Below, piece by piece: positions 24,308 through 61,449 of a stretch of DNA of 64,000 nt. The stretch spans positions 2,294,001 through 2,358,000 of the forward strand of contig NZ_AP025144.1 in assembly GCF_019977755.1 (NCBI RefSeq), read 5' to 3'. Under the pieces are notes generated by a model that saw only the letters and a list, made by a program, of their open reading frames with translations, made no database searches and was not told the DNA's origin. The first letter of the stretch is position 1, and each line of letters starts with the position of its first letter. The stretch comes from Vibrio penaeicida. GTDB lineage: Bacteria > Pseudomonadota > Gammaproteobacteria > Enterobacterales > Vibrionaceae. Position numbers and translations under genes: made by a program.

Positions 24308-25492
24308 TTAACGCCAAACACCCCATTTGCCTGTGGTGCCGGGTTCTTCGCCTTTTGTCCACCATTGCGCAGTCCAACTACGACCAGCATGGGATACAAC
24401 CGCGCCTTTTTCATAGGCTTTGGTAGCGACCCACGCATCATTTGCTGGAGGAGTTGGCGGCGTTGGATCTACCGCTTTAATGAGTGAGAGTTGATAAGAA
24501 GGCTCTGCATTAGGGGCATGAACTTTGTTCGCCAAAACATTGGAACTGTCATACATGTAATGGTTCATCTCGGAATGCCAGATACCAATAAACCACTTCC
24601 CTTTGTTTTGATCATTAATTTGAGCTGCAATCAAACCAGCCCAGTTCGATTGATTATTTGCTGTGATGGGCAATTGAATATCGTGAATCTCTTGACCGGT
24701 AGGACTAAATGTACGGAACCGTGCGGTATCCCCTACTTCTACAGGACCAAAATCAGGTGCTACAAAATAGCCAAGCTCAGTTAGGTTTCTCGTTGGAGGC
24801 GTTGGATCAACTGGGCCTGGATCTGGGTTAGTACCACCGCCATTCAAACGGATATCACTACAGTTGTAAAAGCCCTCACCGCCTGGGTCTTTACGTTGCC
24901 AGCGTGTGTAAAGTACGGCATCGCCAGTTCTTCCTTCTGGAATTTTCACTGTGAGTCGATACCTTCTATCGGGTCCGAGCACAACGTTATCGTTCCTGAC
25001 CAGCATATCAAGATCAGACCAAGTTAACGGCGCATCCCCAGTGTATGAAGCGTTGGATAGATAGACCTGCCAATACGATGGATCATGAGGTGTGTCGGCA
25101 TAAAAGACCAGTTCAAACTCATTGTTCGCGTCAAGTTGGACAGACGTTTTTTGCCAATGCGGTGACGCCACATCTAGGCCAGCTTTCGAGTTTGCACCTG
25201 CCGAACATAAGCTACCATCTTGGATTACCGCTTTGACATGTGCCATGTCTCCGTAATTGGCAACATTCGCAGCAATTTCGTTTCTTTGTACGAAAGGAAA
25301 GGCACCCGAAACATCGAATGCCGCCTGACACGCTTGGTTAGGAATCGCATCAACCCAAAAACCACCATCTAAATAACATGTGTTTTGTCTCGCACTCGGG
25401 AACTCAACCCACCCATGCGCGTTGGCAAGGTTAGGCACCAAAACCTGCGATAATCCTGCCAGTGCGACAGAACAAATAGCCAGTTTATTCAT
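24308..25492 (-). CDS. Chitin-active lytic polysaccharide monooxygenase (AA10) with CBM5/12
   Basis: The 394-aa secreted copper enzyme cleaves crystalline chitin oxidatively. The signal peptide ends NANA before HGWVEFPSARQ, so the mature protein begins with His, the first residue of the copper histidine brace. The second brace His is likely in DTPHDPSYW (about 140). The AA10 domain spans about 26-220. A proline-rich linker (NPDPGPVDPTPPTRN) leads to an unassigned module of about 110 residues (HSEMNHYMYD), then a second Pro linker and a C-terminal CBM5/12 chitin-binding module (WVATKAYEKGAVVSHAG, WWTKGEEPG). The start at 25492 has GGAGA upstream; the longer ORF start lacks support. It is monocistronic. 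Confidence 0.92.
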   Translation of the reverse strand: MNKLAICSVALAGLSQVLVPNLANAHGWVEFPSARQNTCYLDGGFWVDAIPNQACQAAFDVSGAFPFVQRNEIAANVANYGDMAHVKAVIQDGSLCSAGANSKAGLDVASPHWQKTSVQLDANNEFELVFYADTPHDPSYWQVYLSNASYTGDAPLTWSDLDMLVRNDNVVLGPDRRYRLTVKIPEGRTGDAVLYTRWQRKDPGGEGFYNCSDIRLNGGGTNPDPGPVDPTPPTRNLTELGYFVAPDFGPVEVGDTARFRTFSPTGQEIHDIQLPITANNQSNWAGLIAAQINDQNKGKWFIGIWHSEMNHYMYDSSNVLANKVHAPNAEPSYQLSLIKAVDPTPPTPPANDAWVATKAYEKGAVVSHAGRSWTAQWWTKGEEPGTTGKWGVWR

Positions 25493-25711
25493 TATTTCTC
25501 TCCGTTTAATTTTCCTGAACATGCTCGCTTTGGCGTAAATATCTACGCGAAGTGATCAGCGAGCAATTTCAGATTAACAAAGCGAAAATAGGTCGGAGTT
25601 GAATGTAAGTTTATAAATGAAAAGGATTTGTTAAAACGATAAAGTGATTCCATAATCAATCGAACTCATTGCAACCATTTCGGTTGTTTTGCGCTTGAAT
25701 TCAAAGTGACT

Positions 25712-28841: not shown

Positions 28842-29951
28842 TCATAAAATTTGAATGGTCGCGTTGTCAATAAAATCCCAATCCAATTCCGCCCCCAACC
28901 CTGCCGTTTCTGGGAGGTTGGCGTAACCCTTTTCTATAGGTAGCGCCTGTTTCAAACCAAATGAAAAAGTGTCCGTCGGATACAAGAGTTCAACATACGT
29001 CGTGTTGCTGATTGCTGCCGCCACATGCATATTCACTAACTCCAATGGATGGAAAATTGTGGTGTGCAGTTCGCAATTCAAATGGAAAGATTCCGCTAAG
29101 TTTGCCGTTTTAAGGACTCCGGTAATACCGCCGGACCAAGATACATCTGCTCTAACTGCATCATAAACACCAGCCGACAGTGCTTCCGCAACGGAATAAG
29201 GATGATGCGGCAACACCTCTGCACCCACGATTGGAATAGACACCTTCGACTTCAGCTTTTTAAGTGCGGTAAATGACTCATCGGGCAAAGGCTCTTCCAA
29301 CCACGCATAGTTCAACGCTTCCAACCCTTTAGCAAACTCCACCGCCTCTAAAAGTGAATATGACGCAACCGGATCGGACATAAGTGTGAAATCTTCACCA
29401 ACCGCTTCCCGAACCGCTTGGTGAATATCCAAATCTTCACGCATGTTATTACCCGGTGGGTGAATTTTGTATGCATGATACCCAGCATTTTTTACTGCTA
29501 GCGCTTCTTTCTTATAATCTTCCAATGTTGGAAGCACCAGCGATGAGGTATAAACAGGTACGCGCTGCCTTGAACCTCCTATATAGCGCCATAAAGGCTG
29601 CCCTGCATGCTGAGCGCCTAATAGCCATAAACAACAATCAAAGGGACCATAACTGTACATAGGCAAATGATGCCACCATCGATTAAGTGTCCGGTATTCC
29701 TGCCATAGCTTTTCTCGGTCGAGTGCATTTTTGCCAATTAGAAGTGTTGGCATGCTAGACGCTGCTAGATGACCCGCCCCTAATGCTGACTTTCCTGCAA
29801 AACCAAACATGGATGCACTCAATCCACATTCAGTTGTGAGTGTCACCACAAGAAAGTTCAACGCCTCTGATTTACCCGCTTTTTTTAACGCGTGCGCGTT
29901 CATAGCTGTGTCTGTTTGACAGCAGCGTATTTCGACCTGTTTGATTATCAT
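28842..29951 (-). CDS. Enolase-superfamily acid-sugar dehydratase-like protein
   Basis: The 369-aa protein has the mandelate racemase/muconate-lactonising fold: an N-terminal capping domain and a C-terminal barrel. Metal ligands appear as Asp in LMSDPV, Glu in WLEEPL and Glu in GAEVLP, spaced as in the family. The second-strand base motif reads YKIHPPG (KxH) where many members have KxK. A late His sits in CELHTT. Such enzymes dehydrate or epimerise sugar acids by proton abstraction next to a carboxylate. It is the last gene of the minus-strand catabolic island, 45 bp after the UxaA-type gene, so a sugar-acid substrate is likely; the identity is unknown. Confidence 0.85.
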   Translation of the reverse strand: MIIKQVEIRCCQTDTAMNAHALKKAGKSEALNFLVVTLTTECGLSASMFGFAGKSALGAGHLAASSMPTLLIGKNALDREKLWQEYRTLNRWWHHLPMYSYGPFDCCLWLLGAQHAGQPLWRYIGGSRQRVPVYTSSLVLPTLEDYKKEALAVKNAGYHAYKIHPPGNNMREDLDIHQAVREAVGEDFTLMSDPVASYSLLEAVEFAKGLEALNYAWLEEPLPDESFTALKKLKSKVSIPIVGAEVLPHHPYSVAEALSAGVYDAVRADVSWSGGITGVLKTANLAESFHLNCELHTTIFHPLELVNMHVAAAISNTTYVELLYPTDTFSFGLKQALPIEKGYANLPETAGLGAELDWDFIDNATIQIL

Positions 29952-29996
29952 GATTGTTACCGTGATAGGTTAGGGGGCTGTTATCCCGAAATAACG

Positions 29997-31187
29997 CTAT
30001 TTATAAGTAATTAAGCACTCAGCATGCCCCAACGCCTCAGACTTGGTTTGCTGACCTTGAGCAACAGAAACAACGAGGTCGGTAATTTCATTGGCTACAG
30101 AATCCAGCTCGACACCTTCCAGCACTTTTCCGGCATTCACATCCATATCATTGGACATGCGGCTGTATGTTTCTGGGTTTGCACATATTTTAATGACAGG
30201 AGAAATCGCGCTTCCCACTACTGAGCCTCGCCCAGTCGTAAACAACACCATATGAGCCCCACAGGCGATCAATTCTGTGATTTCTGCATTATCAGCGATG
30301 TTAGGAAAGCCGAACCGTACTTCGCCATCGGGAACAACATCCAGCAACCAAAGCCCTTTTTGAGTAGGTAATTCCGCGGGCTTGATTATGCCTTCAATCG
30401 GGCGTGTACCACTCTTGGAATACGCCCCTAAAGACTTTTCTTCAATAGTGGATAGACCGCCATCTGCATTGCCCGGCGCAAAGCTCGCAAAACCAAGAGT
30501 GCTGTAATAGCGAGCCGCCTTATCGACCGACTCTACCAGCGCTTTTGAAATCTCAGGAGTCGAGCCACGCTCACTCATATGCGTTTCACAACCTATCAGT
30601 TCACCTGTTTCTTCAAAAATACAGGTTGCCCCCATATCCACTAACGTGTCGAAGCTTAGACCTACAGCCGGATTCGCTGTTATCCCTGACGTGCCGTCAG
30701 AGCCACCACAGATAGTTGCAACGGAAAGCTCGCTGATGTCCATGTCCACTTTGGTTTCAGACGCCAATATGTCCATCACGCCCGTGACCCACTCTATCCC
30801 TAAATCAATGGCGTTTTGCGTGCCACCCACTTCTTGAATGCTGATGGTACGTGAGGGTCTGCCACTGGCTTTGACCAGTTTATCCAGCTTCTCTCGGTTC
30901 ATGCTTTCGCACCCAAGAGAAACAAATAAGACCGCACCAACATTTGGATGAGTTGCCAGCCCAGACAATACACGCTCTGCATGAGAATTGGGGTAACACC
31001 CCGGAAAGCCGACTTCATGCACGATACCCGGCGCGATTCCTTCAAAGTGGCGAACAATTTTGCTCACCACAAAATGGCTACACTCCACCAAATACGCCAC
31101 CATTATTTGATTGCGAATCCCTTTTCGCCCATCACTTCTTAAATAGCCTTGCAAATGGACTTCACGGTTATATATGGCATCACTCAT
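29997..31187 (-). CDS. UxaA-family dehydratase, large (catalytic) subunit
   Basis: The 396-aa protein has the galactarate/altronate dehydratase C-terminal domain. Motifs: GYLRSDGRKGIRN near the start, GCYPNSHAERVL, LGCES, ICGGSDGTSGITANPA, FEETGELIGCE and LFTTGRGSVVG. The conserved Cys residues bind iron in the family. The SAF-domain small subunit is encoded just upstream, overlapping it by eight bases. This two-gene split also occurs in altronate dehydratases and in SuyAB (R)-sulfolactate sulfo-lyase. The ATG at 31187 is chosen because GGAGGG lies seven bases upstream; the ATG at 31193 is too close. It beta-eliminates water (or sulfite) from a hydroxy acid; the substrate is not deducible. 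Confidence 0.87.
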   Translation of the reverse strand: MSDAIYNREVHLQGYLRSDGRKGIRNQIMVAYLVECSHFVVSKIVRHFEGIAPGIVHEVGFPGCYPNSHAERVLSGLATHPNVGAVLFVSLGCESMNREKLDKLVKASGRPSRTISIQEVGGTQNAIDLGIEWVTGVMDILASETKVDMDISELSVATICGGSDGTSGITANPAVGLSFDTLVDMGATCIFEETGELIGCETHMSERGSTPEISKALVESVDKAARYYSTLGFASFAPGNADGGLSTIEEKSLGAYSKSGTRPIEGIIKPAELPTQKGLWLLDVVPDGEVRFGFPNIADNAEITELIACGAHMVLFTTGRGSVVGSAISPVIKICANPETYSRMSNDMDVNAGKVLEGVELDSVANEITDLVVSVAQGQQTKSEALGHAECLITYK

Positions 31188-31479
31188 GAACATGCCCTCC
31201 TCTTTGATGCGATGGGATATATTGACTATGAAGGTTATGAGTGTGAATCAACTCCCCCGCATCTACATCGGCACTACACCGCCCAATTGGCACACCGTAC
31301 TTGATGATCAATGTGCCTTTTTTGAGTGCCATTCGTGCAACCTTAAACCCTACAGGCGTCGGCTGTTTAACCTCAATAGCCAGCTCGGATCCTTCCCTCG
31401 TTACCACTTCTTGCTGGCGTAACTCCCGACAAGCAATTAACACATTGTCGTCCTCTTTAAGCAAAATCACCGATGCCAT
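31180..31479 (-). CDS. UxaA-family dehydratase, SAF-domain small subunit
   Basis: The 99-aa protein corresponds to the N-terminal SAF domain of UxaA/GarD dehydratases: an early LKEDDNVLIACRELRQQEVV and a conserved core VARMALKKGTLIIKYGVPIG followed by AGELIHTHNLHS, which is diagnostic for the small subunit. It pairs with the large subunit, overlapping it by eight bases. Its start overlaps the RraA stop (TAATG), so the three proteins are translationally coupled. Confidence 0.87.
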   Translation of the reverse strand: MASVILLKEDDNVLIACRELRQQEVVTREGSELAIEVKQPTPVGFKVARMALKKGTLIIKYGVPIGRCSADVDAGELIHTHNLHSQYIPSHQRGGHVHE

Positions 31480-32147
31480 TAGAATTTACCGTATTGCAAA
31501 TAGGCTTCCTGTGCATCCATTCCATCAAGAATTGCGCTGCGCACTTTGTTCTCAACTTTAGTGGATGCATAAGCGGCTTCGGCCACTGATTTAGCAATGG
31601 ATTTAGGAATGATAATGGCACCATCGTCGTCAGCGAGTAGGTAGTCGCCAGGAGATATCGAAACCTCTCCGATTTGGATTGGCACATCAAACCCAACAGG
31701 TTTCCAGTACCCGACAACATCTTCCGGTGTATAGAATCGGTGCCACAACTGGAAACCAATTTTTCGAATAAACCCAGTATCTCTTGCCCCGCCATCCACC
31801 AAGCAACCAAGCACACCTTTATGTTGCAGTGTTTCTGCCGAAAGCTCCCCCATGTGGGCAACTTTGTTATCGTTTGGCTGACACACCCAAATATGCCCGG
31901 GTTTTGCTTTGGAAAGTAACCCCGTCCATTCCAGCAAACTCTGATGACCATCCATAGATTGATCAACTTCACCCAGAATGGTGAACACGGGTCCGGCTAA
32001 GACTTGATCCGTAATAAGAGGGCGCAATTCGCGAGGCAAAACGTAGTTCGTCATGCCCTCTCCTCGCATCACATCATTAACCACGCCGGTATAGCAGTGT
32101 TGGAGCAACTCTGTAATTTCATCTTGTTCATTGGTATGGCTTGTCAT
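31479..32147 (-). CDS. RraA-family aldolase/decarboxylase
   Basis: The 222-aa protein has RraA-fold motifs GPVFTI, HMGELSAETLQHKGVLG and VDGGARDT, which hold the metal- and substrate-binding residues of 4-hydroxy-4-methyl-2-oxoglutarate/4-carboxy-4-hydroxy-2-oxoadipate aldolases. True RNase E inhibitor RraA proteins are shorter (about 160 aa), so an aldolase/oxaloacetate decarboxylase role is favoured. In this island it could cleave a 2-keto-acid produced by the dehydratases to pyruvate plus a second product (inference). It starts two bases after the ABC ATPase gene. Confidence 0.85.
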   Translation of the reverse strand: MTSHTNEQDEITELLQHCYTGVVNDVMRGEGMTNYVLPRELRPLITDQVLAGPVFTILGEVDQSMDGHQSLLEWTGLLSKAKPGHIWVCQPNDNKVAHMGELSAETLQHKGVLGCLVDGGARDTGFIRKIGFQLWHRFYTPEDVVGYWKPVGFDVPIQIGEVSISPGDYLLADDDGAIIIPKSIAKSVAEAAYASTKVENKVRSAILDGMDAQEAYLQYGKF

Positions 32148-32149
32148 GA

Positions 32150-33271
32150 TTACTCTCCCTGGGGGCTCTCAGCTAAAAGGGACTGCTCGGTTCCTTTGTC
32201 AAAGAGGTGAATTCGATCTAACCCGATAGCAAATTCCAAACGCTCTCCGTTTCTCACATCCCTCGGGCTTAACATTTTCGATTGAACTTCTTTCTGCCCT
32301 ATTTGCACGAACAAAATAGTCTCTGTGCCTTGCGGTTCAGAAATGATCACGCTTTCATGAAATGGCGTACTTTGTGCGCCGCTTTCCATACCATGCCCTA
32401 CTGGGTAGAGATCATCCGGTCGGATACCAACCACAATTTTTTGCTCGTGCTGGACTTTTCCTAGGAAGCGCTCCGGTAACTCTATTTCGTGAGCGCCTTC
32501 CAAGTGCAGTATCCATTTCCCGTTTTGCTCGTAAGCAATAGCATCGATCATGTTCATAGGGGGGCTTCCTATAAAAGACGCCACAAACATGTTCGTTGGC
32601 GCATGGAAGATCTCCATGGGGGAGCCGACCTGCTCTATGTAGCCATCTCGCATCACCACCACGCGGTCGGCCAGTGTCATGGCTTCAACCTGATCGTGAG
32701 TCACGTACACCACCGTCGTTTTAACCGTTTGGTGGAGTTTTTTAATCTCGGTACGCATCTGCACGCGTAGCTTTGCATCTAGGTTGGACAGGGGTTCGTC
32801 GAACAAAAATACGTCCGGAGTGCGCACAATGGCTCGCCCCATCGCTACCCGTTGACGCTGCCCACCAGAAAGCTCGGCAGGCATCCTATCCATCAAACTG
32901 TCTAGCCCTAGAATTTGGGCCGCGTTTTGTACTCGTTTTTCGATTTCAGATTCTTCTATATTGGAAATTTTCAATCCAAAACCTAAGTTCTCTTCCACCG
33001 TCATATGTGGATATAGTGCGTAGCTCTGGAACACCATGGAGATGTTTCTGTCTCTGGGCGGCAAATCATTTACCACTCTATCGCCAATCACTACCTCGCC
33101 ACTGGTGATGCCTTCTAACCCTGCGATGATTCTTAGGGTGGTCGACTTTCCGCAGCCAGACGGACCAACCAAAACCACGAATTCATTGTGTTTGATATCC
33201 AAATCGACACCATGAACTACTTCAGTTTTGCCGTATCTTTTTACTACCTTGTTCAGCTTTACGTCAGCCAT
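32150..33271 (-). CDS. CUT1-type sugar ABC transporter ATPase (MalK/UgpC-like)
   Basis: The 373-aa protein has Walker A GPSGCGKST (37-45), Q-loop MVFQSYALYPHM, signature LSGGQRQRVAMGRAI (about 134) and Walker B VFLFDEPLSNLDAKLR, followed by a C-terminal TOBE/OB regulatory domain (about 240-373), as in MalK-type ATPases. It powers the two permeases encoded just upstream; spacing is six bases. CUT1 systems import disaccharides, oligosaccharides, glycerol-3-phosphate or polyols. Confidence 0.93.
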   Translation of the reverse strand: MADVKLNKVVKRYGKTEVVHGVDLDIKHNEFVVLVGPSGCGKSTTLRIIAGLEGITSGEVVIGDRVVNDLPPRDRNISMVFQSYALYPHMTVEENLGFGLKISNIEESEIEKRVQNAAQILGLDSLMDRMPAELSGGQRQRVAMGRAIVRTPDVFLFDEPLSNLDAKLRVQMRTEIKKLHQTVKTTVVYVTHDQVEAMTLADRVVVMRDGYIEQVGSPMEIFHAPTNMFVASFIGSPPMNMIDAIAYEQNGKWILHLEGAHEIELPERFLGKVQHEQKIVVGIRPDDLYPVGHGMESGAQSTPFHESVIISEPQGTETILFVQIGQKEVQSKMLSPRDVRNGERLEFAIGLDRIHLFDKGTEQSLLAESPQGE

Positions 33272-33277
33272 AGATGT

Positions 33278-34138
33278 TTATCCTTTTACACCACCAAATG
33301 TCAGCCCTGAAATCAGGTGCTTTTGAACTAAAAACGTAAGAATAAGTGCCGGAATAATGATGATTACCGCCATGGCACACATGCCTGCCCAGTCAATCGT
33401 AAATTGAGCGGTAAAATCCATTAACCCTACGGGCAACGTCTTACTGTCTGTGGAACGGGTAAGCTGACTCGCCAACGCATATTCGTTCCAAGAGGTAAGG
33501 AAGGCGAAAATACCCGCCGATGCCAAACCCGATTTTGCTAAAGGAAATTCAATTTTCCAAAACGCTTGCCAACGTGTACAACCATCGACTTGCGCGGCTT
33601 CGGATAAGTCCTTAGGTATCTGCCTGAAAAATCCATCAATCAGCCAGATCGTGAAAGGCACATTCAATGCGACATACACCAAAATCACCCCAAATTGTGT
33701 GTCTATCCAGCCGAGCTTACTCCACAGAATGAACACTGGTAGGCTTAGGGCGATACCAGGGATGGTTCGCGAGAGCATTAAGCCCAAAAACAGAGCGTCT
33801 TTCCCTTTAAAACGATACCGAGCAAAAGCGTACCCACCAGCAATACCAATCAAAATGGCTATAACCGTGCTGGTTACTGCGATAATCAGCGAGTTCATAA
33901 AATAACTGCCAACCGGAATCGCGATTTGGTCTACCCCAGCGCCAAGTATCGACATGAAGTTGGATAGCCCGAATTCTTGCGGAATCCAAACCGGAGGCTT
34001 GGCTAAGATCTCTCCATTCGGTCGAAAAGCCGAAAACATCACCCAGACACCAGGGATACACATCAAGGAAATCAGTATGAATACCCCAACTCGAACCGCC
34101 AGTTTCTGAAGCGTGACACGTGTTGATGCCAAGATCAT
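33278..34138 (-). CDS. CUT1-type ABC permease (MalG-like)
   Basis: The 286-aa protein has six membrane helices. The EAA loop is EAAQVDGCTRWQAFWKIEFPLAKSG (about 180-204), which contacts the ATPase. FRPNGEILAKPPVW after the first helix is typical of MalG-like subunits. It overlaps the MalF-like gene by four bases (ATGA) and precedes the ATPase by six. Confidence 0.93.
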   Translation of the reverse strand: MILASTRVTLQKLAVRVGVFILISLMCIPGVWVMFSAFRPNGEILAKPPVWIPQEFGLSNFMSILGAGVDQIAIPVGSYFMNSLIIAVTSTVIAILIGIAGGYAFARYRFKGKDALFLGLMLSRTIPGIALSLPVFILWSKLGWIDTQFGVILVYVALNVPFTIWLIDGFFRQIPKDLSEAAQVDGCTRWQAFWKIEFPLAKSGLASAGIFAFLTSWNEYALASQLTRSTDSKTLPVGLMDFTAQFTIDWAGMCAMAVIIIIPALILTFLVQKHLISGLTFGGVKG

Positions 34139-35052
34139 TGTGCACCTCCCATGAAGCGACGAGCCGCCATTAATTTACGAAAGAAATAGAAGGTAAAAGC
34201 GATAGAAAGCAGAATCGATACATACGCCATAGCATTGGCTTGCCCCATTTTGGCGTTGTCGTAACCGACTCGCGCAATCAACGTCCACAATAGCTCGGTT
34301 CGCCCTGCGGGACCGCCTCCTGTCATCACGTCGACAATATCGAACGCTCGCGCCACATCCAGTGAGCGAATCGTCATCGCAATAAAAATAAAGGGCATTA
34401 AAAACGGTAAAGTAATGTGTCTAAACACCTGAATGGGTGAACATCCATCCACTTTCGCGGCTTCAATTGGGTCTTGTGGCATCGCATATAGCCCTGCCAG
34501 TAATAAGATGGCAAAGACACTGGTACTCATCCAGATTTCAGCAATCATGATGGACATCATGGCCAAGGTGCCATCCACCAGCCACGGAATCGCTTGATCT
34601 GTCCACCCTAGTGTTTGAAGTAAGTTGTTTAAAATGCCTATGTTGTCGTTAAAAACAAATTTGAACTGGAAGCCGACCAATATTGGAGAAAACATCATCG
34701 GGAACATCATGACAGTGCGCAACAAACGCTTTCCTTTCGTGATTTGATTCACCAACAGGGCAATAACTAACCCAAGCACCAGCTCCACATTCAAAACGAT
34801 GGTTAAGAAAAACACCGTTCTTGCGAATACCCACCAGAAATCTGCGTCGGAAAATATTCGGCTGTAATTTCTCAGCCCGATAAACTTCCAAAGTGTTTCA
34901 GGACGAGTGATTTTGTATGGCGTAAAACTTGTGTACAGAGAGAATATCAGTGGTAACAGGACCACAACGAGTATGGTGACTATTGCTGGTAATAGCAGCA
35001 TATAGGGAACCGACTCTTCTCGGTGTACAAAACGCCGAATTGCTCGAAACAT
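34135..35052 (-). CDS. CUT1-type ABC permease (MalF-like)
   Basis: The 305-aa protein has six membrane helices and an EAA loop EAAKVDGCSPIQVFRHITLP (about 196-215). YTSFTPYKITRP after helix 1 is typical of MalF-like subunits without the large MalF P2 loop. It partners the MalG-like subunit. A 92-bp gap with two strong hairpins separates it from the solute-binding-protein gene upstream. Confidence 0.93.
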   Translation of the reverse strand: MFRAIRRFVHREESVPYMLLLPAIVTILVVVLLPLIFSLYTSFTPYKITRPETLWKFIGLRNYSRIFSDADFWWVFARTVFFLTIVLNVELVLGLVIALLVNQITKGKRLLRTVMMFPMMFSPILVGFQFKFVFNDNIGILNNLLQTLGWTDQAIPWLVDGTLAMMSIMIAEIWMSTSVFAILLLAGLYAMPQDPIEAAKVDGCSPIQVFRHITLPFLMPFIFIAMTIRSLDVARAFDIVDVMTGGGPAGRTELLWTLIARVGYDNAKMGQANAMAYVSILLSIAFTFYFFRKLMAARRFMGGAQ

Positions 35053-35076
35053 ACCTATCCTTGTATTAGTTGAGAT

Positions 35077-35120
35077 TAGGGTCTGCTGACCCTATTCAAG
35101 CTGGGTGGGTTCCCCCACCC
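35077..35120 (-). repeat. Tandem intercistronic hairpins between binding protein and permease genes
   Basis: Two perfect 7-bp stems with 4-base loops lie side by side: TAGGGTC/GACCCTA (35077-35094) and GGGTGGG/CCCACCC (35103-35120). No T-run follows, so they are not terminators. In this position such structures typically protect the binding-protein mRNA and lower permease expression. Confidence 0.75.
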
Positions 35121-35144
35121 TTATATGCTTATATCCCTACAGCC

Positions 35145-36464
35145 TTATAAATAGCCTGCGTCTTCCATCACTTCGCGAGCGCCTTCGGCAGCATCATCCA
35201 ATGCTTCCTTCACGGTTTTATCACCAACGACGGCAGCCTGAAGTTGAGGCCAAATTTGGTTAGAGACTTCGATCCATTCTGGGATCAGCGGTGGCGTAAA
35301 CGCATCTTCAGCCATGGACTGTTGGTAGGTTTTGAATACCTGAACCATAAAGTCATTGTTCATGGCACGATTCGCTTCAATGATGTCTTGCCATACTCGT
35401 TCACGAGTAGGTAGCAAGCCTCGACGGGCTTCGAGAATCTGACCTTCGTAGCTCGTTAAGAACGTAATGAACGATGCCGCTGCTTGTTTGTTTTCACACG
35501 CTTCTGTAATAGAAAAAGTGTGAGACCCCGACCAACCCGTGCGTTTACCACCAGAACCTTTAGGCGCTTTGACTAGCCCAATGTCGCCTGCCACTTTGGA
35601 GTTTTTCGGGTCATTGAAAAACGCAGCCCAACCAGCCCAATCCAAATCTAATGCAACGGTGCCTGAAGCAAATCCAAGCCCAGTATCATCCCACAAGTAG
35701 TTTGGCACCCCTGCTGGAACCGCTTTGGCTTCATACAAATCCACAAACCATTGCAGCGCTCGCTGACCTGCTTCGGAGTTAAAGGTTGGGTTCCAATCTT
35801 TATCAAATAACGCGCCACCTTCTGCCACCAGCATCTCGTAGAAACGACCTGTGATTGCTTCGTCTTTACCGACATACTGGGTGCCGTAGAAGTTCGGTGG
35901 ATCCGCGAAGAAAATCGCCTGATCTTTCACTTGGCTCCACGTTTCAGGTGGCGTTAAGTCATAACCATATTTGGCTTTAAACTTAGACTTGTTGTCTTCG
36001 TCTTCAAACAAAGATTTTTTGTAGTAAAGGTTTGAAATATCACTGTGCCTTGGCAACTGCACCAAGCGCCCATCAATGGTTCCGTGCTCAAGCGTCAGTG
36101 CAACAAACTCATCGAGTACACTCTTGCTGATCAGCTTACTGAGATCCGTATAGATAGAGCCATACTGAGGGGCGAAACTGGTATGGTTAGATGCCACACA
36201 ATAATTGATGTTGTTGGCGGCGATATCTTGTTTGATTTCGCGATCTAACTCAAAATGGTTTTTGCGTGAAAGCACTTCGACTTTCATGCCCGTTTTCTTT
36301 TCCCACTTTGGAATCAAAGTGTAGAGAGGTTCATACTGCGCACCGCCTATGAGCTTAACGCGCAGTACCTTGTCGTCTGCGGCATTTGCAACAGAAACAG
36401 AGGCAGTTAAACAAGCCAATCCAATGGCCTTCGTCAGTGTGTTCGATCCTAATAAACGCTTCAT
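35145..36464 (-). CDS. CUT1-type periplasmic solute-binding protein
   Basis: The 439-aa family 1 extracellular solute-binding protein has a signal peptide (about 1-29, LACLTASVSVANA then ADDK). The mature start KVLRVKLIGGAQYEPLYTLIPKWEKKTGMKVEV is the usual alpha/beta domain of this family, with TGWSGSHTFSITEACENK in the second lobe. It captures the ligand for the permeases. The ATG at 36464 has GGAGG five bases upstream; an ATG at 36476 also has GGGAGG eight bases upstream, so the start is not settled, but the later one gives a standard signal peptide. Confidence 0.9.
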   Translation of the reverse strand: MKRLLGSNTLTKAIGLACLTASVSVANAADDKVLRVKLIGGAQYEPLYTLIPKWEKKTGMKVEVLSRKNHFELDREIKQDIAANNINYCVASNHTSFAPQYGSIYTDLSKLISKSVLDEFVALTLEHGTIDGRLVQLPRHSDISNLYYKKSLFEDEDNKSKFKAKYGYDLTPPETWSQVKDQAIFFADPPNFYGTQYVGKDEAITGRFYEMLVAEGGALFDKDWNPTFNSEAGQRALQWFVDLYEAKAVPAGVPNYLWDDTGLGFASGTVALDLDWAGWAAFFNDPKNSKVAGDIGLVKAPKGSGGKRTGWSGSHTFSITEACENKQAAASFITFLTSYEGQILEARRGLLPTRERVWQDIIEANRAMNNDFMVQVFKTYQQSMAEDAFTPPLIPEWIEVSNQIWPQLQAAVVGDKTVKEALDDAAEGAREVMEDAGYL

Positions 36465-36540
36465 CATGTCCTCCATGACGCCGTCCTCCCTGTATTGAGA
36501 GCCGGCTAAAGATTAGTCGTAAAGATTAAACTTACGTGGG

Positions 36541-37689
36541 TCACTTAAGTAAAAACTCCTTGGTGATCGATCCGGTATGCTGACCTAGTGTTGGTGCAGC
36601 TACCTTGCTGTTCAAAACTTTCCCGTCAAACCTTATGGGTAGACGAGTTGTCAGTAATTCTTCTACATCTTGGTGTTCGAGTTTTTGAAGCATATCGAGG
36701 TGCTGAAATGCTTCCGTTTCAATCAAATCATCCCAGTTCAACACTTCCGATGCCCATACATCGTGTTGCGAGAATATCGACATCCAGTGTTCGGTCTTTT
36801 CTTCCAACAACTTGGTTTGTATTTGCTCTTTAATTTCATCTCGATGGCTAAACCACATTTTGCTGTCGGTGTATTGAGCGATGTTTTCGTCGCCCATTAA
36901 TTTCCCAAGCTGGTCAACGGGCCCCATGGCGATCGCGATATAGTTATCTTTGGTTTTATAGATGCCATAAGGTGCTGATAAATACGCATGAGCATTGTTC
37001 ATTTGGCTACGTTCTTGTTTTTTCTTACCGCTATTCAAGTACGTGGTAAGCACCTCAAACTGAAAATCAATCAACACTTCCATTAAGCTGGTTTCTACTT
37101 TGCCGCCTTTTCCTGTGGACTGGCTTTTTACCAACGCTGCCAACACACCTTGAACCAATGCATTCCCCGCCAACATATCCGCGACGGCTAACCCCATTGG
37201 CGTCGGTGGCATATCGCTGTTTCCACTTAGCCATGTCAAACCAGATAAAGACTGCGCTAACAGATCCTGCCCGGGGCGATTCACCCACGGTCCCGTCGTG
37301 CCATAACCAGAAACGGACCCATATATAACTGTAGGATTAAATTGACGAATTGTTTCATAATCCAGTCCCAATCTTTCGATCACACCCGGTCGAAAATTCT
37401 GCAAAACAATGTCCGCTTTCTTTAACAAATTCTTTACAGCGGCAATGTCTTCAGGCTTTTTTAAATCAGCGCAAAAGCTTTCTTTGTTGCGGTTAATGGC
37501 TTGAAACAGTGAATTCACTCCACCCACATCGGTGTCGGTTAGATATAAGTGGCGGCACAAATCTCCGGAGCCTGGGCGCTCTATTTTGATTACACGAGCC
37601 CCTAAGTCAGCCAGCTTCAGTCCAGCCAAGGGACCTGCAAGGAACTGGCTAAAATCGACCACCAACTTCCCTTCTAGTGGCAATGTCAT
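36541..37689 (-). CDS. CaiB/BaiF (class III) CoA-transferase
   Basis: The 382-aa protein starts LPLEGKLVVDFSQFLAGP with GADLGARVIKIERPGSGD-type flow typical of class III CoA-transferases. The catalytic Asp is likely in GLAVADMLAGNA (about 165). QNFRPGVIERLGLDYE and SGYGTTGPW are further family motifs. It moves CoA between carboxylic acids, for example succinyl-CoA to mesaconate or a hydroxy acid. The ATG at 37689 has AAGGAG upstream and overlaps the upstream gene by four bases (ATGA). Together with the two MaoC hydratases it implies CoA-thioester intermediates in this island. Confidence 0.9.
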   Translation of the reverse strand: MTLPLEGKLVVDFSQFLAGPLAGLKLADLGARVIKIERPGSGDLCRHLYLTDTDVGGVNSLFQAINRNKESFCADLKKPEDIAAVKNLLKKADIVLQNFRPGVIERLGLDYETIRQFNPTVIYGSVSGYGTTGPWVNRPGQDLLAQSLSGLTWLSGNSDMPPTPMGLAVADMLAGNALVQGVLAALVKSQSTGKGGKVETSLMEVLIDFQFEVLTTYLNSGKKKQERSQMNNAHAYLSAPYGIYKTKDNYIAIAMGPVDQLGKLMGDENIAQYTDSKMWFSHRDEIKEQIQTKLLEEKTEHWMSIFSQHDVWASEVLNWDDLIETEAFQHLDMLQKLEHQDVEELLTTRLPIRFDGKVLNSKVAAPTLGQHTGSITKEFLLK

Positions 37690-38813
37690 CTTTTGCTCCT
37701 TGCGTACTCTTGCTGAATGTTCTCGACCGTTTTTTCCGGTGAAAGCTGCCCTTGTAGGCAAGCGTTAACCCAATCGCCTGCCACATCCTGAAATTGCATG
37801 TACCCATTATGTCTCGGGCGCAAATAGGCGTTTTCTAGCGTGGTTAATGTGTCTTTAAAAAAGTGATTGGATTGCTGGTTGCAATGTTCATCCTGCCACG
37901 CAACCAAATTCCCGGGCTGCCCACCGGAGTTAAAGAAGAGATCTTTTTGCACTTCAGCGGAAGCAATCCAGAAGGCGTATTTCAATGCAATGTCTTTGTG
38001 TTGGGTAGACGCAGAGATAGCAACACCTGTTCCCCCCAATGTTGTGCCACCGACTGCGTTGTCACCAAATACTGGCGCGTCGCAAGAACGGACGACATGC
38101 TGGCGAAACCCTTCTCGCCCGTAGTTGCTGTAGCCATACAAATAAGGGACGTACGCGGCATCATCTCGGCTGGCGAGCCATTCATAAGCACCAATGGGGT
38201 TCATAGAAAAGCAACACTCATCCAGATGCTGGCTTACACGCAAGAGCTGGTTCAATGCCGCGATGCCCTGCTCAGTAGCGACACCGTTTACATCGATACC
38301 AAATGGGGTTCCTTGGTTGGCGAGCACATTGTAAAAAGACATGAGTGCGTCGATAGGCTTTAATGGCCACACAACCTTGCCGGCTTCCGCTAGTGCAACC
38401 ACTTCATCCCATTCACGTGGAACACTGTCTAATTTATCGGGGCGGTATGCCGCCACAGGGGTAGCCGCGTCAATCGCTAGCGCCCATTGGTGCCCATGAA
38501 AATACGATGGATGCGATTGCCCGACCGATTGCTCGGCGAGTGTTTCCAGTTGATCGTCATAACCATTTCCATCCAGAGGAAGCAGCAAACCAGTTTCGGA
38601 CGCCGCGCCAGCGTGAGGGTGATCGATCACCATTAAGTCGAACTCAGTGGTCATTTCTTCAAGAGGACGATCGGCAAACGCCTGCAAAGATCGTTTATGC
38701 CAAATGATCTCTACGTCTGGGTTAAGCTCTGCAAACTTATTTGCTGTCGCGACCATTGGATCATACCCGCGGCAGTGATCCCAAGTCATACCATGTAGTG
38801 TTACCTTACTCAC
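37686..38813 (-). CDS. Solute-binding-protein-like protein without signal peptide
   Basis: The 375-aa protein has the family 1 solute-binding fold ([23 protein letters not shown] near the N-terminus, [38 protein letters not shown]), but it begins [18 protein letters not shown] with no hydrophobic leader. The GTG at 38813 is chosen because AAGGAG lies eight bases upstream and it overlaps the MaoC stop by eight bases. The ATG at 38837 lies further inside that gene and also gives no signal peptide. It would stay in the cytoplasm unless exported by another route. It may be a sensor, a chaperone-like binder or a component that hands substrate to enzymes; none is shown. Confidence 0.8.
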
Positions 38814-39354
38814 CCGCAGACTCCTTCTTGCCATCATTATCTTTGTAGAGAACTGTCAATAAGTGCTCGCAATAAAGCACAAGCTCGCCTTCGCCCTTAT
38901 AAACGCTGTAGCTCACGCGGACTAACCCCATCTCGTCGTACTTGGGTTCTTTCGATAGGTTTTTTCGTACGGTGTATATGGTGTCGCCAATAAAGGTAGG
39001 TTTGATGAAACGAAGCTTGTCGTAGCCGTAAGAAAAAGAGTTGAGGCAATTAGTCGCAACCAACCCTAACCCGTACGAGAAAACCTGAGCACCTGCCACC
39101 AACCGCTTTCCAAAATGTCCTTCTTCTTTAGCAAAGGTGTCATCGGCTACATAGGGGTGCAGATCCATCACCAGACTATTAAATAGCATGGCTTCACCTT
39201 CAGAAATGGTGCGCCTTAACGATCGAATGGTATGACCGACTTCGAAATCCTCGTAATACCAATCTTCTGCATTCCAAACCGGAATATCAGCGTGGTCAGT
39301 GGGCATGCCTTTTACCGGACGTGATGAAACGCCCACTGTCGGTTTTCTTTCCAT
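38806..39354 (-). CDS. MaoC-like hydratase/dehydratase
   Basis: The 182-aa single hot-dog domain protein has the hydratase region [20 protein letters not shown], with Asp and His in the positions of the R-hydratase motif D-x-x-P-x-H modified to D-L-H-P, then [17 protein letters not shown] and [16 protein letters not shown]. Relatives hydrate enoyl-CoA or mesaconyl-CoA-type substrates. The ATG at 39354 has GAGG five bases upstream. It is the first gene of the minus-strand operon, overlapped by the binding-protein-like gene. A divergent paralogue starts at 39501. Confidence 0.87.
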
Positions 39355-39500
39355 GATAACCTCAACTTTAATTTCATATTCGAAATCTAATTTCAAAATC
39401 AACACTAGCACTTGACTAAAAAATGATCAACAATAAATTTCAAATATAAATCTAGATTGTGAATATGAAATTTAACAAAAGATAAACGTAGGTAATGATC
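39355..39500. promoter_or_regulatory. Divergent promoter region with long-spaced 12-bp inverted repeat
   Basis: Between the two MaoC genes AATTTCATATTC (39370-39381) is perfectly inverted as GAATATGAAATT (39461-39472), with further ATTTC/GAAAT half-sites between (TTCGAAAT, ATTTCAAAT). The region is highly AT-rich. The symmetry between divergent genes suggests a shared operator, possibly with looping. The regulator gene is not in the immediate neighbourhood. Confidence 0.55.
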
Positions 39501-39944
39501 ATGGAACGAGCACGATATTTTGAAGACTACGAAATGGATGAAATGCGCCTTACTGTGGGACGTACCATTACAGAAACGGATTTTGTGGTACATGCAGGTC
39601 ACACTGGGGATTTTTTCCCACACCATATGGATGAAGAGTTTTGCAAACAGCAGCCTTGGGGAAAAAGAATTGCCCACGGCACGATGACATTTGCGATTGG
39701 CATCGGTTTAACCGCCACAGAGATTAACCCTTTAGCCTTCACGTATGGATATGAAAGGCTGCGCTTCCCTAATCCGGTCTATATTGGGGATACCATCAAA
39801 AGCCGAATAACCATAAGCAAAAAGGTAGATGACCCTAAACGTGAGGGTTTTGGACAAGTCACCGAAACTGTAGAGGTGTTGAATCAAGACCGGAAAACCG
39901 TGCTGTATTGCGAGCATATTTTGCTTGTAGAGAAGAAAAAATAA
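39501..39944 (+). CDS. MaoC-like hydratase/dehydratase
   Basis: The 147-aa hot-dog domain has the motif [14 protein letters not shown] (about 34-47), matching the R-specific enoyl-CoA hydratase pattern GDxxPxHxD, followed by [17 protein letters not shown] and [16 protein letters not shown]. It is similar in layout to the divergent MaoC protein, suggesting duplication; both end ...V/TVLYCEHxLxV. The ATG at 39501 has TAGG eight bases upstream, better than the ATG at 39495. The two could act as a heteromer, as many MaoC hydratases do (inference). It is followed by the oxidoreductase gene. Confidence 0.87.
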
Positions 39945-40040
39945 GCTAAAAGCCCTTTTACACGACTATCTTTATCGCATAACTGGCGTAGTAGTATCAA
40001 AGCACAACACTACGCCAAATTAGAATTCAAGGAGTGAACG

Positions 40041-41096
40041 ATGACAATGGAATTGCAGCAAACTTGGCCAAAACCCAATAACCCCAAACCAATCGTAATC
40101 ATTGGAGCTGGCGGAATAGTTCATGATGCACATTTACCCGCCTACAAAAAAGCCGGTTTTCATGTTCAGGGGATCTTTGATATTGATACTTCTAGAGCGG
40201 AAAAAGTCGCCAGCGATTGGGGAATCGAGACTGTATATAAAAGCTTAGAAGATGCCACCCAGTTTACCAATGTGGTTTACGACCTCCCTCTTCCCCCTAT
40301 TGCAGCCCCACAGGTGCTCGAAATGCTCCCCGATGGCGTACCCGTTTTGATTCAAAAGCCTCTAGGATTGGATCTTGAGCAAGCAAAAGTAATCCGTGAC
40401 ATTTGTGAGCGCAAAAACCTCATCGCAGCCGTGAACTTTCAGCTTCGATTTTCTGCCATGATGCTGGCACTAAGAGACGTCGTTCAAAGCGGTAAGCTGG
40501 GTGAGCTAACGGATATTGAAGTCCACTTAAACATTCATACTCCGTGGGAAATGTTTCCGTTTCTACTCAAAATGGAGCGAATCGAATTACTGGTTCATTC
40601 AATACATTACATCGATCTCATTCGCTCTATCGCGGGCAACCCAAAATCCGTCTATTGCCGGAGCATGGCGGATCCTCGCTCGCAAGACTTCAAACAAACT
40701 CGCACCAGCGCAATATTGGATTACGAATATCCTCTGCGCTGCCTAATGTCAATCAATCACAATCACGATTACGGTCGTAAAGCGCAAGACGCCAGTTTCC
40801 GCTTTGAAGGCACCGAAGGCTGCGTGATGATAAAAATGGGCGTCCTGCTGGATTACCCCAACGGCGAGCCTGATGAGTTTCTATTTTGTGAGCGGGGTAA
40901 AGAATGGCAGTCCGTCCCACTTGAAGGCGGGTGGTTCCCAGAAGCGTTTATCGGCACCATGAGCAACATTCAACGCTTCGCATCCGGTGAAGATGACACC
41001 CTACACACTGCTGTTGCAGACGCTTTCCAAACCATGGCGGTTGTTGAAGCCTGCTTTGAAAGCAACAAAGCAAAAGGGACGGATATCCAATACTAA
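40041..41096 (+). CDS. Gfo/Idh/MocA-family NAD(P)-dependent oxidoreductase
   Basis: The 351-aa protein has an N-terminal Rossmann domain with IVIIGAGGIVHDAHLPAYKKAG (about 17-38), the catalytic Lys region IQKPLGLD (about 111, with Gln replacing the usual Glu of EKP) and a C-terminal substrate domain with HSIHYIDLIRSIAG. Family members oxidise sugars, inositols or sugar acids at a hydroxyl. The ribosome site AAGGAG is seven bases upstream. It lies 96 bp after the MaoC gene on the same strand and is followed by a strong terminator. It probably provides the oxidation step for the imported substrate. Confidence 0.9.
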   Translation: MTMELQQTWPKPNNPKPIVIIGAGGIVHDAHLPAYKKAGFHVQGIFDIDTSRAEKVASDWGIETVYKSLEDATQFTNVVYDLPLPPIAAPQVLEMLPDGVPVLIQKPLGLDLEQAKVIRDICERKNLIAAVNFQLRFSAMMLALRDVVQSGKLGELTDIEVHLNIHTPWEMFPFLLKMERIELLVHSIHYIDLIRSIAGNPKSVYCRSMADPRSQDFKQTRTSAILDYEYPLRCLMSINHNHDYGRKAQDASFRFEGTEGCVMIKMGVLLDYPNGEPDEFLFCERGKEWQSVPLEGGWFPEAFIGTMSNIQRFASGEDDTLHTAVADAFQTMAVVEACFESNKAKGTDIQY

Positions 41097-44214: not shown

Positions 44215-45399
44215 TTAATCTGCTAACTCAAGACAAATCGCTACGCCTTGTCCGCCGCCAATGCACATGGACGCCAAGCCTCGTTTTGCGTTTGCTCTTA
44301 TCATTTGATGAATCAGAGACACAACAATTCTACAGCCCGATGCTGCTAAGGGGTGACCAAGCGCAATGGCACCTCCATTGGGGTTCACTTTTTCTGGATT
44401 CAGAGACAAATCTCGCATTACCGCAATGGATTGAGCAGCAAAGGCTTCATTCAGTTCAACCACATCTAACTGGTCTACGGTCCACCCTGCCTTTGATAGC
44501 GCATGTTTTGATGCCAGTACTGGACCTAACCCCATATCTATCGGATCCAATGCCGCGGATGCGTAAGAGACGATTCGAACCATAGGTTTGAGACCAGCGG
44601 ATGCCAATGCACTTCCTCGCCCGACTAAAACGGAAGCTGCGCCATCGTTGATACCTGAAGCATTTCCAGCGGTAATAGTTCCTTGTCCGACAAATGCAGG
44701 GGGCATTTCTGACAACTTCTTGAGGGATGACTGAGGGCGTGGCTGTTCATCATGGGAAACAATGGCGTCACTTTTGTTTGTCTTCACCTTAATGGAAACA
44801 ATCTCTTGTTCAAAAAGGCAAGATTCCATCGCTCTTTTGGTTTTTAGTTGCGAGTTCAGAGCAAACTCATCCTGCATTTCTCTGGATATGTCATAACGAC
44901 TGGCAATGGGTTCGACTGTTTCCCCCATGTGTATGTTGTAGAACTTATCCCAAAGCCCATCTGTGATCATGCTGTCTTTCATTACTTGATCGCCTAGCTT
45001 TTTGGGTGCGCGGGCATGCAACACGTGCGGGGCTTGTGTCATAGAATCTTGCCCACCTGCAAGCACCAGATCCGCGTCTCCCGCTTTGATAGCCTGCGCC
45101 GCCAGATGAATCGACTTCTGCCCTGCACCACAAACCATGTTAACCGTCATCGCGGGGATACGGCTTGGCAAACCCGCCCAAACCGCCGACTGCCGAGCGG
45201 GGTTCTGACCCGCGCCTCCTGTCAGAACCTGCCCAATAATGACTTCATCGATCAAATTGTGGTCAAAGTCATGCTCTGCCAGCATTCCTTTTATGACCTG
45301 CGAACCAATTTCCGCTGCGGATAAGCTTGCGAACGCGCCATTTAACTTTCCAATGGGTGATCGCTTTGCTGCGGCAATGTATATGTCGTTGTCCTTCAT
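44215..45399 (-). CDS. Acetyl-CoA C-acyltransferase (thiolase)
   Basis: The 394-aa thiolase has the full catalytic set: nucleophile Cys in NMVCGAGQKS (about 89), His in GGAIALGHPLAASG (about 350) and second Cys in SMCIGGGQG (about 380). It cleaves beta-ketoacyl-CoA or acetoacetyl-CoA to acetyl-CoA, or runs in reverse. Nine bases separate it from the aldehyde dehydrogenase gene. In this region it likely splits the acetoacetyl-CoA made by the acetoacetyl-CoA synthetase. Confidence 0.93.
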   Translation of the reverse strand: MKDNDIYIAAAKRSPIGKLNGAFASLSAAEIGSQVIKGMLAEHDFDHNLIDEVIIGQVLTGGAGQNPARQSAVWAGLPSRIPAMTVNMVCGAGQKSIHLAAQAIKAGDADLVLAGGQDSMTQAPHVLHARAPKKLGDQVMKDSMITDGLWDKFYNIHMGETVEPIASRYDISREMQDEFALNSQLKTKRAMESCLFEQEIVSIKVKTNKSDAIVSHDEQPRPQSSLKKLSEMPPAFVGQGTITAGNASGINDGAASVLVGRGSALASAGLKPMVRIVSYASAALDPIDMGLGPVLASKHALSKAGWTVDQLDVVELNEAFAAQSIAVMRDLSLNPEKVNPNGGAIALGHPLAASGCRIVVSLIHQMIRANAKRGLASMCIGGGQGVAICLELAD

Positions 45400-45408
45400 A
45401 ATCAGACC

Positions 45409-46830: not shown

Positions 46831-46865
46831 CATGATTCCTTCCTTAAAGGGCTTGTGAACCCCAA

Positions 46866-48524: not shown

Positions 48525-48539
48525 AACTCGTTTCCTTTG

Positions 48540-52086: not shown

Positions 52087-52105
52087 TAACTGTCCCTAGC
52101 TTTCC

Positions 52106-57924: not shown

Positions 57925-58061
57925 GTCTTACCATCCTTACAGTGTTCAGCAGAGGCAGTATTTCGGAACCGCGCTGTGCCGTTCTATGCGTTATTGATGT
58001 GTTATCTTTAATCCATTGCGTATATTTCTAACTTGTTATTTTTATTTGTATTTTTCTTTTC

Positions 58062-58862: not shown

Positions 58863-58960
58863 GCATCCTCCCTAAATCCTCGGTTCAGCTTGTCTAACAG
58901 GTTCAACCTAGCCCATCGGAGCTTTGGGCAAGCCAAATGGCTCACCCACACTCCTAAACC

Positions 58961-60298: not shown

Positions 60299-60379
60299 CA
60301 TGTGCTTCCTTGTTGATGGTAGCCGAATCCGCGGCTACTCAGTCTTTATGAAAAGAAATACTTAATCTTTCCGTTCTGC

Positions 60380-61447: not shown

Positions 61448-61449
61448 TT

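Follow-up and report, generated by a model that had tools for sequence, protein, structure and literature searches.

A Vibrio penaeicida gene island as the probable half of a split regulon for fucose-type sugar catabolism, with an orphan solute-binding-fold/CoA-transferase module

The gene island at positions 28842-41096 of the window (the whole analysed stretch of 64,000 nucleotides from Vibrio penaeicida) is, with a probability of roughly two in three, one half (half A) of a bipartite regulon in which a known pathway takes a modified form and is joined by an orphan CoA module. The pathway, judged from the sequence, is likely to be an oxidative one that degrades a sugar of the fucose type, either 6-deoxy-L-galactose or a relative, without phosphorylating it. 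The initial annotation had treated the island as a self-contained pathway, which does not hold, since the mutarotase, lactonase-like, SDR and FAH families are encoded in half B of the same genome. The putative shared operator and the half-B operon make a seemingly incomplete island a testable pathway.

All genes of the initial annotation (CUT1 transporter, UxaA, RraA, enolase, CaiB, two MaoC and Gfo/Idh) were recovered at 28842-41096 by ORF and domain checks and confirmed by domain matches, and their strands agree with the two divergent units described there; likewise, no kinase and no KDPG-type aldolase were found among the island ORFs. The minus-strand unit encodes an enolase-superfamily protein of the MR/MLE group, a candidate acid-sugar dehydratase or cycloisomerase (28842..29951; PF13378), a UxaA/GarD large subunit (29997..31193; GD_AH_second and GD_AH_C, PF04295 and PF20629) and small subunit (31180..31479; SAF domain, PF08666, 5.5e-7), and an RraA-like candidate class II pyruvate aldolase (31479..32147; PF03737). 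These are followed by the UgpC-type ATPase (32150..33271; NF008653, 484.5 bits with a cut-off of 432), two permeases (33278..34138 and 34135..35052; both PF00528) and the periplasmic solute-binding protein SBP1 with a signal-type N-terminus (35145..36476; SBP_bac_1, PF01547) of the CUT1 transporter. The same strand carries CaiB, a class III CoA-transferase (36541..37689; CoA_transf_3, PF02515, 5.4e-102, scored on a longer ORF reaching 37761), SBPcyt, a solute-binding-protein fold without signal peptide (37686..38837; SBP_bac_8, 8.5e-11), and MaoC1, a hotdog protein without the catalytic His (38806..39354; PF01575). The plus-strand unit encodes the hydratase MaoC2 (39495..39944; PF01575, intact GDxxPHH) and a Gfo/Idh/MocA dehydrogenase, a candidate sugar 1-dehydrogenase (40041..41096; PF01408). 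The SBPcyt gene, which holds a second SBP domain, had been overlooked; it lies between MaoC1 and CaiB, overlaps the CaiB gene by 4 bases, and its product has the fold of ABC-transporter solute-binding proteins. The SAF domain and the GD_AH second and C-terminal domains are held by adjacent genes, which places the pair in the UxaA/GarD superfamily as a heteromer. A thiolase and an ALDH (44215-46833) were considered as island members and rejected, being missing from the flank of a related contig (L012).

The same gene set in the same order was found in three further Vibrio contigs (L011-L013), so the order is not due to chance. The proteins of genes recovered intact there are 85-100% identical to those of the island; in L012, ORF calling missed MaoC2 and yielded only part of the enolase-family gene. 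Island orthologues are also present in Photobacterium and in alphaproteobacteria identified by name, where they belong to gene clusters for the non-phosphorylating catabolism of fucose-type sugars. Identities of 45-73% link nine island proteins to the clusters of Martelella (eight proteins) or Pararhizobium (MaoC1). SBP1 matches the Martelella cluster SBP at 57% and a 322-residue piece in Photobacterium at 83%, and the Gfo/Idh/MocA protein matches the Gfo of the Martelella cluster at 55%. An annotated L-fuconate dehydratase is present in the clusters of Martelella, Pararhizobium and Roseibium, that of Martelella matching the Xanthomonas L-fuconate dehydratase (PDB 2hne, E 3e-172).

Half B lies 4.7-9.6 kb past the window end and encodes a lactonase-like amidohydrolase, a mutarotase, an SDR, an FAH hydrolase, an enolase-family protein and an IclR regulator. 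In this genome about 27.6 kb separates the facing ends of the halves, and in Photobacterium the halves form a single cluster. In all four other island genomes, the contig with the island also carries a 75-99% orthologue of the half-B enolase-family gene; the best match of this gene in five comparison Vibrio genomes is 39%. A conserved 33-bp palindrome (TTTCAWAT-N17-ATATGAAA), derived by comparing the intergenic regions of related clusters, stands before both halves. Its copy at 39438..39470, between the divergent units, is the top site of the 64 kb window, scoring 20.2 bits where the runner-up reaches 5.8. The island genes are probably under one operator, and co-regulation, on which the initial annotation had made its proposal depend, is suggested by this palindrome common to both halves. 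The motif TTGATCA was set aside as operator: TTGATCAW occurs at chance level in L082 (2 found, 2.66 expected) and L014 (1 found, 2.46 expected), and its 15 copies in the window (8.15 expected; 4 of 100 shuffles reach as many) are scattered throughout. Promoter 20-mers were compared in seven pairs, six with 12 shuffles each and the seventh (17/20) without shuffles; one pair scored 15, a single letter more than the best of its 12 shuffles (14), two equalled the shuffle maximum (16 and 15), and the rest of the shuffled pairs did not.

The mutarotase of half B (PF05336, 118.5 bits) is of the rhaM family, which does not specify the sugar. L-fucono-1,5-lactonase is the only NCBIfam match of the lactonase-like protein at E 1e-15 (133.9 bits, below the cut-off of 400). 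The FAH hydrolase matches PF01557, and its best model is NF053535, the rhamnonate version (343.2 bits, below the cut-off of 500). Because both proteins score below the curated cut-offs and the best FAH model is that for rhamnonate, the sugar could differ from fucose; another 6-deoxyhexose, L-galactose or D-arabinose could take its place.

Orthologues of the UxaA large subunit (62-63%) occur in two related clusters (L053, L054) at the position held by FucD elsewhere, and in the stretches retrieved from four genomes (G332, G440, G192, G830) UxaA is present and FucD absent. No enolase-type FucD orthologue was found in the own genome, the best match being 36% over residues 179-375 of 425. Since the UxaA pair stands at the position of the enolase-type fuconate dehydratase in related clusters, it is probably the sugar-acid (L-fuconate-type) dehydratase, and it may replace the enolase-type FucD. 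The RraA-like protein has 49-55% orthologues in L045 and L110-L113, in two of which (L110, L112) it adjoins 61-62% orthologues of the island enolase-family protein. The nearest PDB entries of the latter are 1rvk and 4hcd, 'isomerase/lactonizing enzyme' (E 1e-48). RraA, UxaA, SDR and FAH occur all together in G192, which is judged, with its order, to be alphaproteobacterial; RraA is therefore not simply an alternative to SDR and FAH.

The non-phosphorylating L-fucose pathway proceeds through FucM, FucA, FucB, FucC, FucF and FucG or FucH (PMC11199699). It is matched across both halves by the mutarotase, dehydrogenase, lactonase-like amidohydrolase, dehydratase candidate, SDR and FAH. As outlined in that source, the pathway differs in its 1-dehydrogenase and dehydratase, for which the Vibrio candidates are of the Gfo/Idh and UxaA types, and CoA is needed at no step; Vibrio further has RraA, additional proteins of the enolase family and the CaiB/SBPcyt/MaoC module. 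For Paraburkholderia mimosarum (A19U_RS0100650/655), gene context led to the proposal of an L-fuconate dehydratase of heteromeric UxaA type (PMC6336799). The proposal, as given there, shares with the island the split UxaA subunits in a fucose-type cluster; the present case differs in concerning Vibrio and relatives, and both assignments are drawn from gene context. The fucose-induced fuc locus of Campylobacter jejuni contains a split uxaA, an amidohydrolase, a mutarotase, a dehydrogenase and dapA (PMC6946681, PMC12566272). It likewise joins split UxaA to an amidohydrolase and a mutarotase but, in the parts of these sources that describe the locus, has MFS transporters, has a DapA-type protein instead of SDR and FAH, and is given without naming a CoA module. 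A gene-for-gene match of the island to a characterized pathway was found only in part: the half-B families are of known type and the CoA module is extra.

In the proposed scheme, the CUT1 transporter would import a fucose-type sugar, which would be mutarotated, oxidized at C1 by Gfo and then delactonized. The UxaA heteromer would dehydrate the sugar acid to a 2-keto-3-deoxy acid, which the SDR would oxidize before FAH cleaves the product to pyruvate and lactate; by another route, RraA would split the 2-keto-3-deoxy acid into pyruvate and lactaldehyde. The CoA module would form an accessory branch, in which SBPcyt would bind a carboxylate or a sugar acid within the cytoplasm and, with CaiB, form the CoA thioester, and the MaoC1/MaoC2 pair (one degenerate, one active) would add or remove water at C3. 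This branch would bring in sugar acids (epimers, O-substituted forms) that ordinary dehydratases cannot take. The reaction assigned to the module is put forward tentatively.

The CoA_transf_3 domain spans the full length of CaiB, which matched 35 PDB sequences, the nearest being succinate-hydroxymethylglutarate CoA-transferase. The Asp of its RPGQD motif, presumably the catalytic aspartate of class III CoA-transferases, is aligned to Asp in both PDB alignments inspected. MaoC2 (closest PDB 4ffu, E 8e-65) has GDxxPHH in 18 of 18 rows; MaoC1 has D-x-H-P-Y-V in 17 of 17, with Val in place of His, the Asp and His of the motif being taken here as the catalytic residues. In carnitine metabolism, CoA-transferases and hydratases of the CaiB/CaiD type occur in pairs. 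The island resembles this in placing a hydratase (MaoC here; a crotonase in other SBPcyt clusters) next to a class III CoA-transferase and differs in its sugar-transporter context and in the signal-less partner of SBP fold, which is not known from carnitine systems. The initial annotation was right to set CoA-transferase and MaoC outside the standard sugar-acid pathways: the CoA part fits no described pathway found, and no description of the SBPcyt/CaiB pair or of a CaiB/MaoC module in fucose catabolism was found among the papers listed by searches of the open-licence PMC literature (for one of them the first 15 of 39).

The pairing was followed in 49 SBPcyt loci, some of them second copies from one genome. 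They comprise the window, L008-L010, L014 and L015 (L011-L013 left out as near-duplicates); L016 and L018-L021, five of 146 plasmid records (near-duplicate L017 left out); 18 of the 23 places of one search (G215 and one G146 place left out; the window, L008 and L010 already counted); 18 of the 19 places of a second (the remaining one being that of L045); and two of the five places of a third (two already in the set; G622 left out). SBPcyt and CaiB lie on the same strand at most 100 bp apart, in either order, in 36 of these loci, and CaiB is absent in five. No natural fusion was seen among the 36 adjacent pairs, an in-frame pair in L057 being split by a stop. CaiB is usually paired with SBPcyt, in an apparently undescribed combination, and the two constitute a recurrent orphan module of SBP fold and CoA-transferase. 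Near-invariant residues are present in SBPcyt across all 49 loci. Its conservation (35 of 348 core columns, 41% mean identity) is comparable to that of the enzyme CaiB (55 of 372, 47%), a resemblance that is not decisive. Because SBPcyt positions are constant beside different transporters, a common ligand or a catalytic role fits better than a sugar-specific carrier. SBPcyt divergence tracks that of CaiB (0.79) more than that of the UgpC-type ATPase (0.39) at the same 38 loci. Such distance correlations carry shared descent: on one set of 29 loci, SBPcyt correlates almost as strongly with IclR (0.88) as with CaiB (0.92). In G391, two CaiBs are 83% identical and the SBPcyts of the same loci 40%; this and the five loci that lack CaiB count against the proposed scheme.

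It is possible, if somewhat doubtful, that SBPcyt and CaiB constitute an undescribed two-component CoA-transferase, in which the SBP fold, relocated to the cytoplasm, serves as substrate-capturing or catalytic subunit; together with the MaoC pair or a crotonase, this enzyme would give sugar acids a route through CoA thioesters. If so, the enzyme is at work in Pseudomonadota and Bacteroidota at the least, next to CUT1 transporters that are near or only distantly related; CoA-thioester chemistry would join sugar-acid catabolism, the solute-binding-protein fold would gain a new use, and many 'extracellular solute-binding protein' annotations would need correcting. It is about as likely that the module acts on another compound imported alongside and shares nothing but its regulation with the sugar pathway. 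Such a separate role would fit Sinorhizobium meliloti, where about 11 kb separates the CaiB/SBPcyt pair from the transporter (L016). Against it, several type I clusters have the module next to the operator-like site and to the IclR gene, and the module also accompanies other sugar-transport gene sets. The S. meliloti pSymB locus SMb21103-SMb21106 is reportedly an L-fucose transporter in fitness data (a search for SMb21106 by name found nothing in the open-licence PMC literature).

The initial annotation had joined sugar import, dehydration and CoA chemistry, which stands, in a single line within the island, the imported sugar acid being dehydrated to an unsaturated acid that CaiB turns into a CoA thioester, MaoC rehydrates and RraA cleaves. 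This sequence of steps is unlikely, even though all the needed activities are encoded beside one operator-like site and the CoA module is accompanied by RraA and a UxaA subunit in L045, in L113 and in Photobacterium (L014 with L091). The lactonase-like, mutarotase, SDR and FAH genes join the island unit in relatives and are present in this genome, and the retrieved stretches of L018-L020 hold the module without a UxaA or RraA match. Moreover, UxaA-type dehydration, as treated for D-arabinonate in PMC6336799, yields a 2-keto-3-deoxy acid and not a free unsaturated acid.

Among 7995 scored candidates, 3325 pass E 0.001 as SBPcyt-like, the lower end of which may hold ordinary SBPs. A signal-like hydrophobic segment (12 residues above 1.6, a threshold chosen in this analysis) was found in the first 60 residues of 0 of the best 120 SBPcyt homologues listed (top value 1.53) and of 19 of 20 SBP1 orthologues, whose starts were set at the first start codon and are in some cases over-long; over 40 residues the counts are 0/120 and 16/20, and over 30 residues 0/120 and 13/20. 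SBPcyt thus seems to stay inside the cell. It is highly improbable that SBPcyt belongs to a second transporter as its ordinary periplasmic binding protein, given these counts, the closer divergence of SBPcyt with CaiB than with the ATPase, and a Bacteroidota plasmid of Rufibacter on which the SBPcyt/CaiB pair lies beside a sugar symporter with no ABC permease annotated or matched within 29 kb. In the window copies, the hydrophobic segment reaches 0.41 in SBPcyt (first 40 residues) and 1.99 in SBP1 (first 60).

The catabolic island at 28842-41096 is half of a larger unit, and its most probable function (roughly 0.7) is an oxidative catabolism of the fucose type, split over two operons. ORF and domain searches of the window confirmed the coordinates and families of all genes named in the initial annotation. 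One gene had been overlooked, namely 37686-38837 (-), which lies between MaoC1 and CaiB and encodes a second solute-binding-protein domain, apparently without a signal peptide (SBPcyt). The genes of the minus-strand operon are closely packed or overlap, with at most 92 bases between neighbours.

The second operon (half B; G000:C1:2362657-2367569) holds genes absent from the island and encodes IclR, an enolase-family protein, FAH, SDR, mutarotase and a lactonase-like amidohydrolase. It is located in the same genome, at a distance of 27.6 kb from the near end of the island and 4.7-9.6 kb past the end of the window. TRAP-transporter-like and amino-sugar-enzyme-like genes, judged by eye from their first residues only, adjoin it at L082:11933-16834. 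A single stretch of a draft Photobacterium contig (L014 and L091), with several genes fragmented, carries amidohydrolase, MaoC2, MaoC1, SBPcyt, CaiB, IclR, an enolase-family protein, FAH hydrolase and SDR, together with mutarotase, the Gfo/Idh/MocA dehydrogenase (Gfo), the periplasmic binding protein SBP1 (35145-36476 (-) in the window), permeases, UgpC, RraA, the UxaA pair and a second enolase-family protein. In the draft contig of L091 (Photobacterium sp. JCM 19050) the UxaA large subunit, UgpC and an enolase-family gene each appear to be split in two. Plasmids of Martelella, Roseibium and Pararhizobium contain the same core and an annotated L-fuconate dehydratase. For nine island proteins a counterpart with 45-73% identity was identified, in the Martelella cluster for eight of them and in the Pararhizobium cluster for MaoC1; the Martelella cluster itself yielded no MaoC1. 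The Martelella dehydratase aligns over its full length with the L-fuconate dehydratase structure of Xanthomonas (E 3e-172); a solved protein that has no named function ranks above it in the structural database. In all four other island-bearing genomes, an orthologue of the half-B enolase-family gene (75-99% identity) shares a contig with the island (for G1095 judged from the contig number). Among five comparison Vibrio genomes, one gave no match to this gene and the best match elsewhere was 39%.

A 33-bp palindrome, TTTCATAT-N17-ATATGAAA, is located between the divergent units of related clusters, the genomes of which are probably alphaproteobacterial. With a weight matrix built solely on five of these related-cluster sites (L045, L110-L113; two from one genus), the top site in the 64 kb window was 39438-39470 (20.2 bits; next 5.8). 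At the half-B locus L082 it was 11597-11629 and scored 18.3 bits, with the lactonase-like gene 27 bases downstream; an overlapping site reached 11.9 bits and the best non-overlapping one 2.2. In L014 the matrix ranks a site between Gfo and SBP1 first, at 22.3 bits, followed by two at the gap separating MaoC1 from MaoC2, at 17.5 and 14.5 bits. L019 and L020 each have a weaker version of the palindrome upstream of MaoC1, and L020 has another between amidohydrolase and IclR; the palindrome search found no site of at least 12 of 16 in L018, L046, L049, L050, L114 and L115. The spacing was taken from the related clusters, yet the Vibrio sequences had already been viewed, so the matrix result is strong but not blind evidence that the two halves, as predicted from sequence, form one regulon. 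IclR would be the protein that binds the site. Beside the main site, 39372-39404 also resembles the operator, though more weakly (13.9 bits).

The UxaA pair (29997-31193 (-) and 31180-31479 (-), the latter a SAF-domain ORF for the small subunit) is a putative sugar-acid dehydratase, because it adjoins SDR and FAH in L053 and L054, in the position held in other clusters by the enolase-type L-fuconate dehydratase, and lies between RraA and SDR/FAH in G192; moreover, gene context in Paraburkholderia led to the proposal of a heteromeric L-fuconate dehydratase of the UxaA type (PMC6336799), and in C. jejuni fucose induces split uxaA genes (PMC12566272). RraA is plausibly a pyruvate aldolase; since it occurs together with SDR and FAH (G192), it may act on another intermediate. 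The exact sugar is not fixed, because FAH and the lactonase-like protein score under curated cut-offs; L-fucose ranks first, followed by other 6-deoxyhexoses, L-galactose or D-arabinose.

The unit varies a known pathway type and includes one recurrent orphan module, comprising CaiB (36541-37689 (-)), SBPcyt and the MaoC proteins, which merits biochemistry. A search of 100 genomes for SBPcyt at E 0.001 gave four with a match: the source genome (6.78 Mb), two more among the 61 of its genus, and one of the same order whose match is weak. Within the genus the family is thus rare, and both further copies (L009, L010) lie in a cluster of a different kind from the island. The closest named contigs found belong to two Vibrio penaeicida strains (SBPcyt identity 91% and 96%) and Vibrio sp. 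S9_S30 (91%). At E 1e-30, 18 of 398 genomes sampled from the phylum had SBPcyt; at E 1e-60 it was detected in 5 of 385 genomes from the class of G192 and in 17 of 292 from its order. These samples supplied loci of a 49-locus set. Besides the island, the source genome carries SBPcyt and CaiB once more, in a cluster that also holds crotonase, SDR and CUT1 genes (L008:10962-13239, near 3.19 Mb of G000:C1) and in which the SBPcyt frame is broken by TGA. On a Rufibacter tibetensis plasmid a second, apparently signal-less solute-binding-protein ORF (L021:17568-18815) adjoins SBPcyt and two CaiB genes. SBPcyt clusters of L118-L121, L059, L060 and L062 contain crotonase, CaiB, SDR and IclR, their transporter genes being only distantly CUT1-like.

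CaiB is present in 44 of the 49 loci and was not found in L117, L122, L127, L128 and L129; a MaoC or crotonase match occurs in 42. CaiB and SBPcyt are at most 100 bp apart on the same strand in 36 loci, in either order (SBPcyt first 19, CaiB first 17). Across 43 loci, the correlation between SBPcyt and CaiB distances is 0.78, a value reached by 0 of 500 permutations; it is 0.79, versus 0.39 for SBPcyt-UgpC, in the 38 loci also having the UgpC-type ATPase, and 0.92, with 0.88 for IclR, in the 29 loci with IclR; shared descent adds to all of these values. The two clusters of G391, with CaiBs 83% and SBPcyts 40% identical, count against tight coupling. MaoC2 retains GDxxPHH in 18 of 18 rows, and Val replaces the catalytic His of MaoC1 in 17 of 17. 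In loci with both, the two may assemble into a heteromer that pairs an active with a degenerate subunit; several loci with MaoC2, among them L053-L056, gave no MaoC1 match. Tentatively, CaiB with SBPcyt would convert a sugar acid to its CoA thioester, and MaoC would add or remove water at C3, a route to which we give low confidence; action of the module on a separate, co-regulated substrate is equally likely.

Elsewhere in the window, a separate catabolic stretch (44215-63928 (-); domain scan of all but the last three ORFs) encodes thiolase, aldehyde dehydrogenase, MFS, thiolase-like protein, AMP-ligase, Fe-S protein, an ETF pair, GMC oxidoreductase and branched-chain-type ABC genes. The gene at 24308-25522 (-) encodes a GbpA-like lytic polysaccharide monooxygenase that carries a family 5/12 carbohydrate-binding module.
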